Origin: Planctomycetia bacterium
GTDB lineage: Bacteria > Planctomycetota > Planctomycetia > Pirellulales > UBA1268
DNA: 64,000 nucleotides
Direction: 5' to 3'
Assembly: GCA_026401035.1 (NCBI GenBank)
Contig: JAPLNR010000064.1
Location: 1 to 64,000, forward strand
Below the pieces are notes generated by a model. That model searched no databases, was not told where the DNA came from, and saw only the letters and a program-made list of their open reading frames with translations. Made by a program: the position numbers and the translations under genes. How positions within the stretch are numbered: the first letter of the stretch is position 1; each line of letters starts with the position of its first letter. Below are positions 22,628 to 52,299 of the stretch, piece by piece.

Positions 22628-22701
22628 TACCCCCGACTGGGGTCGAACCAGTAACCTTCAGCTTCGGAGGCTGACGCTCTATCCAATTGAGCTACGGGAG
22701 C
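22628..22701 (-). tRNA. tRNA-Arg (anticodon CCG)
   Basis: Reading the minus strand from 22701: acceptor GCTCCCG pairs with CGGGGGT (two G-T pairs), D arm with AGCTCAATTGG and GAGC, anticodon stem TCAGC/GCTGA around CTCCGAA (anticodon CCG), T arm ACTGG-TTCGACC-CCAGT and discriminator A. No CCA is encoded. Its 3' end faces left, towards the recombinase remnants, consistent with use as an integration site. Confidence 0.95.
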
Positions 22702-36394: not shown

Positions 36395-36416
36395 GACAGG
36401 CTGAAGCCTGTCCTAC
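36395..36416. repeat. Dispersed palindromic repeat, copy 3
   Basis: GACAGGCTGAAGCCTGTCCTAC split over 22 bases, with a perfect 8-bp stem (GACAGGCT/AGCCTGTC) and a two-base centre. It sits between the convergent rplU and ubiD genes and could help terminate both. Confidence 0.6.
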
Positions 36417-38302
36417 AGCAATCCCGCCAGCGGACCGCCGCGTTGGCAGAGGGCGTCGACCTGGGCTGAGACGGCCGAATCCTCCTCGACCGGCGGCGCG
36501 TGATGCGGCTTGAGCCGCGCGTCGATGACGAGCGGCCCGCGACAGCCCCAGTGCTTCTGGTGCACCGCCGCATCGACGCCGTGAACGTCGGCCGCGGGAT
36601 TCGACCGCGTGAACGTCAACCAGAGCAGGTTTTCGAGGCTCGCGGCGGCGAAGTCGCTGTCATCGACGATCACGATCAGCGGCCAGGCCCGGAGCGGATG
36701 CTCCGGGCCGACCGACCTGCAGAGCCGCTCGATGTCGTCCGCCCACGGCGCCGTGGCCGCGAGCGCCCAGATCGCGGCATCGCTTTCCGCCTCCAGCCGG
36801 GGCCGCGGCTCGATCCGCGGCCCACTGATCGCGACGACGCCCGGCAGGCAGACGCGGGGATTGCCGAAGCCGTCGGGCAGCGTGATGCCGCCGGGCAGTT
36901 CCCGTGGCAACGACCGGATCGCCGGTCCCCGCGCGGCGACGACGAGCTTCGAACCCGCGTTGAGTCCGCTGCCCGAGTAGTCGAGCGTGTCGATCATGGT
37001 CTCGGTCTGGAAGTGGCAGTCGCGCCGCCAGTCGACCCGTTCGAGGAGGTGCGCGAGAAACGGTCGAATGTCGTGGGCATCGAGGCCGGGGGCGTCTCCC
37101 GCGGCGATGATGAAGAGATACTTCGCGAGCGAGAGCTGCCCCTGCCCGAGGATCGCCGAGGCCTGCGTGAGCAGTTCGGCCGGCCGCGTTGCCGGTTTCC
37201 AGGGGAGGTAGCGCTCGCTCCCCACGGCCAGGAGCAGCGGATGCACGCCCGAGGCGTCGACCGCATGCACGCTCTTCACGCCCGGCAGCACCGTCGGGAT
37301 CACGGGGCCGGTCAGTTCGTGGACGAGCCAGCCGAAGAGCGTGTCTTCCTGCGGCGGCCGCCCGACCACCGTGACCGGCCAGATCGCGTCGGCGCGGTGC
37401 CAGACATGGTCGACCTGCATGACGGGGAAATCATGCCGCCGGGCGTAGTAGCCGAGATGGTCGCCAAACGGGCCCTCGGGCTTCGTCGCCCCCGGATGCA
37501 CCGTGCCCTCGATCACGAAGTCGGCCTCAGCGTAGATGGCCGGGCGATTCTTCCGCGTGATCATCGGGATGCGATGGCCGGCGAGCACGCCGGCGAACGT
37601 GAGTTCGGAAAGCCCTTCCGGCAGCGGCATCACGGCCGAGGGGGCGAGTGCCGGCGCGCCGCCCACGAAGATCGCCACCTTCAGCGGCTCGCCGCGGGCC
37701 AGCGCCGCCGCATGGTGCACGCCGATGCCGCGATGCAGCTGGTAGTGGAGGCCGACCTCGCGGTCGTGCTCGTAGGCATTGCCCGCCAGTTGGACGCGGT
37801 ACATGCCGAGGTTCGAATGCTTCGTGCCGGGATGGTTCGGGTCTTCGGTGTAAACAGCCGGCAGGGTGACGAACGGTCCGCCGTCGCCGGGCCAGCTTGT
37901 CACCTGCGGCAGCCGCGAGAGCAGAATTTCACGGGCGAGCACCGGGCCCGAGCGGACGTGGCGTGGCAGCATTGAGAGGGCGTCGTACGGCGACCGCCAG
38001 TAGCGCCAGGGTTTTTTCAGTGCCTCGGCGGGATCGATCTTGAGTTCGACCAGCCGCTTCACGCGGTCGAGAGAGTCGGCGAAGATCCGCTCGATCCGCC
38101 GCTGCGTGCCGTAGAGGTTCACGAGCACTGGGAAGCCCGCGGCCTTGGGGTTCGTGAAGAGCACCGCCGGCCCGCCGGCGCGAAACAGCCGCCGCTGGAT
38201 CTCGGCGATCTCGAGGTGCGGGTCGACCGGGTGATCGATCTCGACGAGTTCCCCTTCCTCACGAAGGGCATTGACACAGGCGCGAAGCGTTCTGAATCCC
38301 AT
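36413..38302 (-). CDS. UbiD-family prenylated-FMN decarboxylase
   Basis: 629 aa, longer than the usual 480-500 because of a C-terminal extension of about 120 residues. The metal and prFMN residues can be seen: Asn164 and Arg169 in KHSNLGMYRVQL, and Glu276 in EGPFGDHLGYY (276-286). UbiD enzymes reversibly decarboxylate unsaturated or aromatic acids with cofactor made by a UbiX prenyltransferase, which is not in the window. Starts at the ATG at 38302, next to a long inverted repeat. Substrate cannot be told. Confidence 0.9.
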   Translation of the reverse strand: MGFRTLRACVNALREEGELVEIDHPVDPHLEIAEIQRRLFRAGGPAVLFTNPKAAGFPVLVNLYGTQRRIERIFADSLDRVKRLVELKIDPAEALKKPWRYWRSPYDALSMLPRHVRSGPVLAREILLSRLPQVTSWPGDGGPFVTLPAVYTEDPNHPGTKHSNLGMYRVQLAGNAYEHDREVGLHYQLHRGIGVHHAAALARGEPLKVAIFVGGAPALAPSAVMPLPEGLSELTFAGVLAGHRIPMITRKNRPAIYAEADFVIEGTVHPGATKPEGPFGDHLGYYARRHDFPVMQVDHVWHRADAIWPVTVVGRPPQEDTLFGWLVHELTGPVIPTVLPGVKSVHAVDASGVHPLLLAVGSERYLPWKPATRPAELLTQASAILGQGQLSLAKYLFIIAAGDAPGLDAHDIRPFLAHLLERVDWRRDCHFQTETMIDTLDYSGSGLNAGSKLVVAARGPAIRSLPRELPGGITLPDGFGNPRVCLPGVVAISGPRIEPRPRLEAESDAAIWALAATAPWADDIERLCRSVGPEHPLRAWPLIVIVDDSDFAAASLENLLWLTFTRSNPAADVHGVDAAVHQKHWGCRGPLVIDARLKPHHAPPVEEDSAVSAQVDALCQRGGPLAGLL

Positions 38303-38308
38303 AAAAAT

Positions 38309-38393
38309 AAAAGGTGACAGCCACCAAATCTGGGTAAAATGGAGAGCAGACAGTTATAGGCATCTTGCCCAGATTTGGTGGCTGTCACCTTTT
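38309..38393. repeat. 26-bp inverted repeat in the ubiD/osmC promoter gap
   Basis: The left arm at 38309-38334 (AAAAGGTGACAGCCACCAAA then TCTGGG) and the right arm at 38368-38393 are perfect reverse complements (26 of 26), with a 33-base spacer. Its edges are AT-rich on both sides. It fills most of the 107-base gap between divergent ubiD and osmC. Size and structure fit a MITE- or REP-like element or a strong cruciform or terminator; it has no coding content. Confidence 0.85.
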
Positions 38394-38409
38394 TTAGCGA
38401 AGGAGATCG

Positions 38410-38820
38410 ATGGTCAGCCTCACCACCACCTACGAAGGCGGGCTCCGCTGCCGTGCCGTCCACGGCCCGTCTGGCACCGCGCTCGTCACCGATGCCCCGG
38501 TCGATAACCACGGCAAGGGGGAGAGTTTCTCGCCCACCGACCTCGTGGCCACGGCGCTCGGGGCCTGCATGATGACGGTGATGGGGATCGTGGCCGAGCG
38601 GCACGGCATCGATCTGGTCGGCATGAAGTCGGAGACCGTGAAGGAGATGACGAAGGAGCCGCCGCGGCGGATCGCCGCGCTCCGCACGCGGCTCACCATT
38701 CCGCTGCCGGCCGATCATCCGAACCGGCAACTGCTCGAGCAGGCGGCCCACACCTGCCCGGTGCACAAGAGCCTCCATCCCGACATCGACGCCGCGATCG
38801 AATTCGTCTGGGCGGGCTGA
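38410..38820 (+). CDS. OsmC/Ohr-family peroxide-reducing protein
   Basis: 136 aa. Cys pair of the family: Cys in LGACMMTVMG and Cys in HTCPVHKSL. The RBS AAGGAG precedes the ATG at 38410. OsmC proteins reduce organic hydroperoxides with thiol help (lipoyl or dithiol). Motif TDLVATALGACMMT matches OsmC rather than Ohr. The inverted repeat upstream overlaps its expected promoter region. Confidence 0.9.
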   Translation: MVSLTTTYEGGLRCRAVHGPSGTALVTDAPVDNHGKGESFSPTDLVATALGACMMTVMGIVAERHGIDLVGMKSETVKEMTKEPPRRIAALRTRLTIPLPADHPNRQLLEQAAHTCPVHKSLHPDIDAAIEFVWAG

Positions 38821-40288: not shown

Positions 40289-40364
40289 GGTGGCTATAGC
40301 TCAGTTGGTTAGAGCACTAGATTGTGATTCTAGGGGTCGCGGGTTCGAGTCCCGTTAGCCACCC
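40289..40364 (+). tRNA. tRNA-His (anticodon GTG)
   Basis: GGTGGCTATAGCTCAG at the 5' end, anticodon loop TTGTGAT (GTG), T arm GCGGG-TTCGAGT-CCCGT, 3' AGCCACC-C. The extra G before the acceptor pairs with the C discriminator, the G-1:C73 identity pair of tRNA-His. CCA is not encoded. Confidence 0.96.
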
Positions 40365-49722: not shown

Positions 49723-52221
49723 ATGGGATCCATAACGCTCATCGATTTGGGGCAGATTGCCCAGCGGCTCGGTCTTCGGTCGGCCGGCGTCGAGGCGGCG
49801 GTGCAACTGCTCGACGAGGGCAACACCGTTCCGTTCATCACGCGCTACCGCCGCGATCAGACCGGCGGCCTCGACGAAGTCGACATCCGGCGGATCGCCG
49901 ATTCCGTCGGCAAGGCGCGGCAACTGGCCGACCGCAAGCAGACGATCCTGCGAACGATCCAGGGGCAGGGGAAACTCACGCCCGAACTGACGGCACAGAT
50001 CGAGGCCGCCGACAGCCCGAAGCAACTCGAGGATCTCTACCTGCCCTTCAAGCCACGGAAACTCTCGCTGGCCGAGATCGCCCGGCAGCGGAGGCTGGAG
50101 CCTTTGGCCCGCGAAATCGTCGCCGCAGCTTCCCTGGCGGCCGATCTCGACAAGCGGTCAGCCGATTTCATCGATGCCGACGGTCAGGTGGCCACGGGTG
50201 CCGACGCCCTGCTGGGCGTGGGCCACATCATCGCCGATGAATTCAGTGAACGGGCCGACGTGCGGCAGCGGCTGCGGGGCATCCTCTACAAGAAGGCGCA
50301 CCTCAAGAGCCAGCGGGTTGAAAGCGAAGGGAAGGCGCTCTCGAAGGACGAAAAGCACTTCCGCGACTATTTCGATTATTCAGAGCACGTGCAGCGGGTG
50401 GCGCCGCATCGGGCGCTGGCGATCAACCGCGGCGAGCGAGCCAAGCTGCTGAAGGTGAGGATCGATGGGCCCGTCGAGGAGATGCAGGCGGCGGCGGAGG
50501 AATTGCTTGTCGCCCCCGACCATCCCCATGGCGATTTTCTGCGGGGCTGCGTCCGCGACGCGCTCACCCGGCTCGTGCTGCCGAGCCTCGAGCGGGAGAT
50601 CCGCCGCGAGATCACCGAATACTGCGAGACCCACGCCGTCGAGGTCTTTGCGCGCAACCTGCGCAACCTGCTCCTGCAGTCGCCGGTGGCGGGCCGCCGC
50701 GTGCTGGCGCTCGATCCCGGCTTCAAGAGCGGCTGCAAGGCGGTGGTGATCGACGAGTGCGGCAACCCGCTCGAGCATGCCGTCCTGCACATCATCGGCA
50801 AGAAGGAAAAGCGCGAGGCAGCGGCGCAGAAGATCGTCGAGATGGTGAAGGCCCATGCCTGCACCGTGATCGCCGTCGGCAACGGCACGGCCGGCCGCGA
50901 CACGGAGTCGCTCGTGGCCGAACTCGTCGGCGGCGATCTCAAGGAGCTCGACGTCGGCTACGTGATCGTCAACGAGGCGGGGGCGAGCGTCTATTCGACG
51001 AGCGCCTACGGCCGCGAGGAACTGCCGACCCACGAGGCGGCTGTGCGTGGCGCGATCTCGATCGGCCGCCGGCTCCAGGACCCGCTTTCGGAGCTGGTGA
51101 AGATCGAGCCGGCCAACATCGGTGTCGGCCTCTACCAGCACGACGTGAAGGCGCGGCACCTGCATACCTCCCTCGACGCCGTGGTGGAGAGTTGCGTGAA
51201 CTACGTGGGCGTCGACGTGAATACGGCCAGTCCGGCCCTGCTGCGGTACGTGTCGGGCCTCAATCAGACGACCGCGAAGGGCTTTCATGAGTGGCGGACG
51301 AAGAACGGCGCCTTCACCTCGCGGCAGCAATTCCTGGAGGTGCCGGGATTCGGCGAGTCTGCATTCGTGCAGGCCGTGGGTTTTCTGAAGATCACCGGGG
51401 GTGTGAATCCGCTCGATTCGACCTGGATCCATCCCGAGAGCTATGCCGTGGCCGAGAAGGTGCTCGAGCGGCTGGGCGGCAGCCAGCAGGATCTCACGAG
51501 CCGGCAGCAGGCCGAGGTGCTCGCTGAGAAGGCCGCCGGCATCGATTTGCCGAAGCTGGCGGAGGAACTGGGTGTCGGCCGGCTGCTGTTGACGGACATC
51601 ATCGAGCAACTCTCCCGGCCGGGCCGCGATCCCCGCGAGGATCTGCCGAAGCCCTTCTTCAAGAAGGGCGTGCTCAAGCTCGAGGATCTCGAGGTGGGCA
51701 TGGAACTACTCGGGTCGGTGCTCAACGTCGTCGACTTCGGCGCCTTCGTCGACATCGGCCTGCACGATAGCGGCATGGTGCATATCAGCCAACTCTCCTC
51801 CCGCTATGTCCGCGATCCCCACGACGTGGTCACGGTCAGCCAGATCGTGAAGGTGTGGGTGCTCGAGATCGACAAGGGCCGCCGCAGGGTGGCGCTCACG
51901 ATGATCCAGCCGGGGAGCGAGCAGCAGCAGCCGAAACGGCAGCGATCGGAACGGGGGGAACGACGGCCCAAGCAGACGGCGGAGCAGGGCGGCTCCCCTC
52001 CGCAGGCCGGCGGCAGGCCGCAGCCCTCACGGCCCGCCCGCGGCCGTGACAATGCCCGGCCGCCACGGGAGCCGCAGACGCGAAGTTACGTGGCCAGCAC
52101 GCCCAAGAAGCCGGCCAAGCCGCTCACCAAGGAGATGCGTGAGGGGAAGGAGCCGCTTCGCACCTTCGGCGATCTCAAGCAGTTTCTCGACAAACGGGAA
52201 TCGGGCGGCGAAGAGAAGTAG
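49723..52221 (+). CDS. tex: Tex-family S1 RNA-binding protein
   Basis: 832 aa. The N-terminal helix domains, the YqgF/RNase-H-like domain (VLALDPGFKSGCKAVVIDE), the helix-hairpin-helix (GVDVNTASPALLRYVSGL) and the S1 domain (GSVLNVVDFGAFVDIGLHDS) are in the usual order. Tex is a conserved nucleic-acid-binding protein involved in transcription. It carries an unusual C-terminal extension of about 110 residues, rich in Gln/Pro/Arg, ending in a SWIB-like or DUF-like short helix KEPLRTFGDLKQFL. Start ATG at 49723. Confidence 0.93.
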   Translation: MGSITLIDLGQIAQRLGLRSAGVEAAVQLLDEGNTVPFITRYRRDQTGGLDEVDIRRIADSVGKARQLADRKQTILRTIQGQGKLTPELTAQIEAADSPKQLEDLYLPFKPRKLSLAEIARQRRLEPLAREIVAAASLAADLDKRSADFIDADGQVATGADALLGVGHIIADEFSERADVRQRLRGILYKKAHLKSQRVESEGKALSKDEKHFRDYFDYSEHVQRVAPHRALAINRGERAKLLKVRIDGPVEEMQAAAEELLVAPDHPHGDFLRGCVRDALTRLVLPSLEREIRREITEYCETHAVEVFARNLRNLLLQSPVAGRRVLALDPGFKSGCKAVVIDECGNPLEHAVLHIIGKKEKREAAAQKIVEMVKAHACTVIAVGNGTAGRDTESLVAELVGGDLKELDVGYVIVNEAGASVYSTSAYGREELPTHEAAVRGAISIGRRLQDPLSELVKIEPANIGVGLYQHDVKARHLHTSLDAVVESCVNYVGVDVNTASPALLRYVSGLNQTTAKGFHEWRTKNGAFTSRQQFLEVPGFGESAFVQAVGFLKITGGVNPLDSTWIHPESYAVAEKVLERLGGSQQDLTSRQQAEVLAEKAAGIDLPKLAEELGVGRLLLTDIIEQLSRPGRDPREDLPKPFFKKGVLKLEDLEVGMELLGSVLNVVDFGAFVDIGLHDSGMVHISQLSSRYVRDPHDVVTVSQIVKVWVLEIDKGRRRVALTMIQPGSEQQQPKRQRSERGERRPKQTAEQGGSPPQAGGRPQPSRPARGRDNARPPREPQTRSYVASTPKKPAKPLTKEMREGKEPLRTFGDLKQFLDKRESGGEEK

Positions 52222-52270
52222 GACAGGCTTCAGCCTGTCAATTACGCCGACCGGCTGAAGCCTGTCCCAC
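52222..52270. repeat. Dispersed palindromic repeat, copy 4 (tandem inverted pair)
   Basis: Two copies head to head: GACAGGCTTCAGCCTGTC at 52222-52239 (8-bp stem, two-base loop) and GGCTGAAGCCTGTCCCAC at about 52253-52270. It lies between convergent tex and infA and may terminate both. Confidence 0.6.
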
Positions 52271-52299
52271 TTCTCACGGGGCACTTCCCGAGCCGCGGA

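Follow-up and report, generated by a model that had tools for sequence, protein, structure and literature searches.

Why should the gap between two divergent genes in a planctomycete genome be filled largely by a perfect inverted repeat? In the window, the 64,000-nucleotide stretch of DNA analysed here, a ubiD gene and an osmC-like gene diverge from a gap of 107 bases (38303-38409), 85 of which are taken by the repeat. The window's own genome (G000) comprises 3.77 Mb in 82 contigs and is 94.5% complete. The features of the locus are these:

36413-38302, minus strand: ubiD, encoding a UbiD-family decarboxylase, neighbour gene (Pfam)
38309-38393, no strand: whole element, very probably a REPIN made of two inverted REP arms and a spacer (pairing, folding, repeat family)
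38309-38334, plus strand: left REP arm, AAAAGGTGACAGCCACCAAATCTGGG, with its core GGTGACAGCCACC at 38313-38325 (inverted-repeat and core search)
38335-38367, no strand: spacer of 33 nt, with AGTTATA, also present in the elements that genomes G001 and G023 have in this gap
38354-38359, minus strand: TATAAC, candidate -10 box for ubiD, in the loop
38368-38393, minus strand: right REP arm, exact reverse complement of the left, with its core at 38377-38389
38410-38820, plus strand: osmC-like gene, neighbour gene (Pfam)

The first-pass annotation of this DNA had described 26 of 26 paired positions across a 33-base spacer, with A/T runs on both flanks. Both descriptions hold, and the pairing lies far beyond chance. 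The 26-nt perfect inverted repeat is the longest in the window, compared with a maximum of 14 in 30 locally shuffled windows, and with two mismatches allowed the arms reach 33 nt and the loop is 19 nt. The predicted DNA fold of the 107-nt gap has an energy of -33.3 kcal/mol (z = -10), and none of 200 shuffles was equally stable. The ubiD start codon lies six bases from the element; read by eye, these six bases show no Shine-Dalgarno sequence, and AAGGAG is retained upstream of the osmC-like ATG. At its gathering thresholds Rfam reports only two tRNA genes in the window (40290-40363 and 22628-22701) and nothing at the hairpin, which therefore fits no described RNA family at that threshold.

Could the hairpin serve as a bidirectional transcription terminator? 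Within each arm a stem of five pairs does lead into a run of Ts, once per strand, but neither gene needs a terminator in this gap, because both diverge from it. The arms, moreover, are far longer than termination requires and are repeated across the genome, and we regard this explanation as extremely improbable.

The number of arm copies in the genome, which the first-pass annotation had named as a check on mobility, is high. The core GGTGACAGCCACC occurs exactly 25 times in G000, against none for the reversed control, and AAANGGTGNCNGNCACC gives 41 strand matches against one for its control. BLAST with the whole element returns 58 matches, both strands counted. Grouped together, the matches of these searches fall at about 26 places, some of them complete elements, others single arms or mini-palindromes of 23 bp (AAAAAGGTGACAGCCACCTTTTT); a core at C70:36020, which stands without A/T context and is likely due to chance, was left out of this number. 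Exact cores within the window are confined to the 38309-38393 element. Full doublets like the window copy are found on contigs C69 and C70, with a second one on C46, and shorter doublets on C29. When 18 elements were aligned, they proved to have conserved ends, similar length and variable spacers, and in most full copies the distance from core to core is 73-77 bp. Neither a GTAG (GT[AG]G) nor a CGTC tag is seen by eye at the foot of the stem, in either window arm or in the 18 aligned elements.

The same repeat extends to relatives. Among 196 genomes across the order, the pattern is present in 17 of the 36 that belong to the window's family but in only five of the 160 others, with one match for the reversed control. 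Copy number differs sharply within genera; in genus g4, for example, the four genomes have 37, 1, 0 and 2 pattern matches.

Two other structures were noted in G000. At C2:12811-12905 two inverted mini-REPs surround a different, GC-rich stem, perhaps one repeat family nested in another. In the window itself, an unrelated REP-like hairpin at 52213-52275 has 27-nt arms (GAGAAGTAGGACAGGCTTCAGCCTGTC) that are 93% paired around a 9-nt loop, and its family is larger and dispersed (75 BLAST matches in the genome, both strands counted).

Evidence for insertion comes from a sister copy rather than from the window copy. This sister, at C46:106387-106468, sits where two genes adjoin, and the second of them appears to encode histidyl-tRNA synthetase. 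It is missing in all five congeners searched (G001 to G005), where the two genes meet in an ATGA overlap, and comparison with these five shows no visible target duplication at the empty site. Two more sites (C69:15188 and C70:47108) aligned uncleanly, the relatives having 11-98 bases of other sequence. The counterpart of the latter in G001, on C8, has a REPIN-like element of the GGTGCCTGGCACC type at the same gene boundary, and the occurrence there of elements of different types hints at a favoured place for insertion. An unrelated DDE transposon could give rise to a MITE, likewise small and multi-copy with terminal inverted repeats, and flanked by a target duplication. Such an origin has next to no probability, however, given that the empty site shows no duplication and that the same arms bound genes for Y1 HUH transposases.

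These genes, for REP-associated tyrosine transposases (RAYTs), are found in relatives of G000. Inverted cores surround the RAYT gene at six of 12 loci in the window's family (G008, G015, G012, G019, G028 and G001), compared with none of 18 loci in other families; no core was found in the examined flank of the family loci in G006, G009, G010, G013 and G027, or of one of the two in G029. A finer comparison of arms covers the seven of 15 RAYT loci that passed a motif filter, and all seven, which have both catalytic motifs (NHWH as the HuH motif and YVERNP as the tyrosine motif), are bounded by exact inverted arms of 16-31 bp. The RAYT unit of G012 ends in AAAAGGTGCCAGCCACCAAATCTGGG, which is identical to the window arm at 25 of its 26 bp. 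PF01797 (Y1_Tnp) is matched at 50.5 and 45.3 bits against a cut-off of 23, with HuH and tyrosine motifs present, and on the NCBIfam RAYT model NF047646 the G008 and G012 proteins score 73.7 and 75.7 bits, below the curated cut-off of 80.

Presence of the transposase also follows abundance of the repeat. PF01797 is matched in all eight family genomes with at least 10 pattern matches, against seven of the 28 others (Fisher p = 0.0002, in a test that ignores the relatedness of the genomes), and a RAYT protein search splits the same genomes 7/8 against 7/28; both counts include the remnant in G000 described below. G022 has 18 pattern matches, yet no RAYT is found in it by protein search. Outside the window's family, in the region C63:7500-10000 of G163, from another family of the order, the arms that enclose a RAYT unit are of the same GAC type as in the window. 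The intact 223-aa RAYT of this unit was read by eye, its tyrosine motif being YVERNA and so missed by the script, and the right arm with its inner flank shares 31 of 33 bases with the window arm by our own count. This unit might reflect transfer between families of the order.

The first-pass annotation had also looked to a matching transposase in this genome, and here the outcome is divided. A search of G000 with PF01797 gives one match, a 60-residue piece at C82:113677-113856, whose frame runs directly into a REP arm at 113875. The query with a whole RAYT recovers this same piece only, with one stop, and neither query finds an intact RAYT in the 94.5% complete genome. The piece scores 22.8 bits on NF047646 (cut-off 80) and matches all seven RAYT proteins extracted from the 11 loci listed. 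A remnant that ends in an arm is thus what G000 itself provides, while intact RAYTs flanked by arms are found in relatives. Since the RAYT of G000 is truncated, its REPIN population is probably immobile now, and the family in this genome is probably a fossil.

We conclude, with little doubt, that the inverted repeat between ubiD and the osmC-like gene is a REPIN, a non-autonomous mobile element that shares its ends with a RAYT (Y1 HUH transposase) unit. Its REPs are paired and inverted in one hairpin with a short spacer, its copies are dispersed, a sister copy has an empty site to set against the occupied one, and in relatives the same REPs flank the RAYT gene. The earlier suggestion of a MITE or REP-type element linked to REP-associated transposases is therefore borne out by the copies, the sister's empty site, the arm-flanked RAYTs and the remnant that ends in an arm. 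As a putative mechanism, the hairpin arms would be recognised in single-stranded form by the RAYT, which would cut and rejoin them in trans and so spread REPINs into gaps between genes. Because the arms at the ends of the RAYT units are the REPIN arms themselves, one readily sees how REPINs and RAYT ends are related.

The other suggestion in that annotation, a cruciform or two-way regulatory hairpin, gains no support as the primary identity. We consider it very unlikely that the element is an immobile structure selected for control of ubiD and osmC, even though it fills the divergent gap, its perfect pairing is preserved, and G001 and G023 have elements with a shared spacer between the same two genes. 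Against this, the same arms stand at about 26 places in the genome beside unrelated genes, they flank RAYT genes, and the corresponding gaps of most relatives are without such an element. A secondary effect of the REPIN on ubiD is possible.

How old, then, is the window copy? From the 16 ubiD-osmC gaps extracted (G015 being left out), both the congener G001 and G023, which belongs to another genus, have an element in which two arms enclose a related spacer. One arm lies upstream of ubiD in G013 and G022, and CTATAACT stands at a similar place in G003, without clear arms; the gaps of G003 and G004 may hold decayed copies. No arm was seen in the gaps of G002, G005, G018, G008, G016 and G024. The case for a common origin of the G000 and G023 elements is made by their identical place and shared AGTTATA, not by the similarity of their spacers, which score 9.0 compared with 13 and 12 for the best pairs from different places; the higher-scoring pairs (25, 23 and 23) are from genomes of the same genus and could be orthologues. 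One congener and another genus share the window copy, which is an old insertion. The patchy pattern is most simply explained by vertical inheritance with losses, the alternative being independent insertions at a favoured site. The first-pass annotation had set a single-copy arm, together with conserved sequence in the promoters of relatives, against mobility. The first half fails, as the arm is multi-copy, and the second holds in part, because two relatives retain the window copy in this gap.

The shared AGTTATA, present in the spacers of G000, G001 and G023, reads TATAACT on the ubiD strand. A sigma-70 consensus scan found no promoter, so it is conservation that speaks for a -10 box, and it suggests that the ubiD promoter, with TATAAC as its -10 box, now lies inside the hairpin loop. 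The ubiD mRNA would then start within the loop and contain one arm only. The broader idea that REPIN spacers generally carry a promoter was rejected, as TATAAC is found in none of 21 other REPIN spacers (a set without the two rows from G028:C208, where there are three arms).

The arms themselves differ between these genomes. Both window arms are of the GGTGAC type, as are nearly all copies in G000, and their counterparts at this site in G001 and G023 have GGTGCC types or decayed forms. From these three sequences, either the arms at this gap changed together or they were replaced where they stood. A more elaborate history, which we put forward as doubtful, would make the window REPIN an ancient copy that has been domesticated and now has the ubiD promoter in its loop. 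Both of its arms would have been rewritten to follow the REP type of the host genome (GAC in G000, GCC types in G001 and G023), a concerted evolution of an orthologous REPIN in which RAYTs drive conversion or replacement without a change of site. Should such arms indeed follow the type of their genome, this would be a natural case in which to ask whether RAYTs maintain or convert REPs in place.

Where does this family stand among known systems? A full-text literature search with the core strings found no paper, and one for RAYTs and Planctomycetes found only PMC3733652 and PMC6006769, so that the repeat family seems undescribed, as a sequence, in the literature searched (PMC8049555, consulted in part, is also cited here). 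As mobile DNA it is of a known kind, while the family itself seems to be new, its RAYT system not found described in that literature. The REPIN is ordinary in kind, and its old copy at a promoter is mildly interesting.

The tagged REPs treated in the consulted part of PMC3733652, with GTAG or CGTC, are reported there in Planctomycetes among others, and their dimers, mostly 20-100 bp apart, are similar in arrangement; neither tag, however, stands at the feet of the planctomycete repeat. Likenesses are also apparent to the REPtrons and TnpAREP subclasses of PMC6006769, as covered in the part consulted, in which a RAYT with HuH and Y motifs is flanked by its own REPs, and that part describes untagged, atypical REP structures for subclass 2.6 and class 3. 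The combination of NHWH and YVERNP matches no row in the examined part of its TnpAREP table, and in class 3, which that part records for Planctomycetes, the Y motif ends in EQ, unlike YVERNP. The REPINs of Pseudomonas fluorescens SBW25, to judge from the part of PMC3116915 consulted, have a different sequence. In contrast to them, the planctomycete family lacks a GTAG tag, is rich in A/T at its outer ends, numbers tens of copies and has, in G000, a broken RAYT. The architecture is nevertheless alike, with two inverted REPs, conserved ends, a variable spacer of near-constant length, a hairpin, dispersed copies and a link to RAYTs, and the invariant 16-mers of SBW25, 71 bp apart, compare with 73-77 bp from core to core here. 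An untagged REPIN/RAYT system of uncultured planctomycetes is thereby added to those already known.
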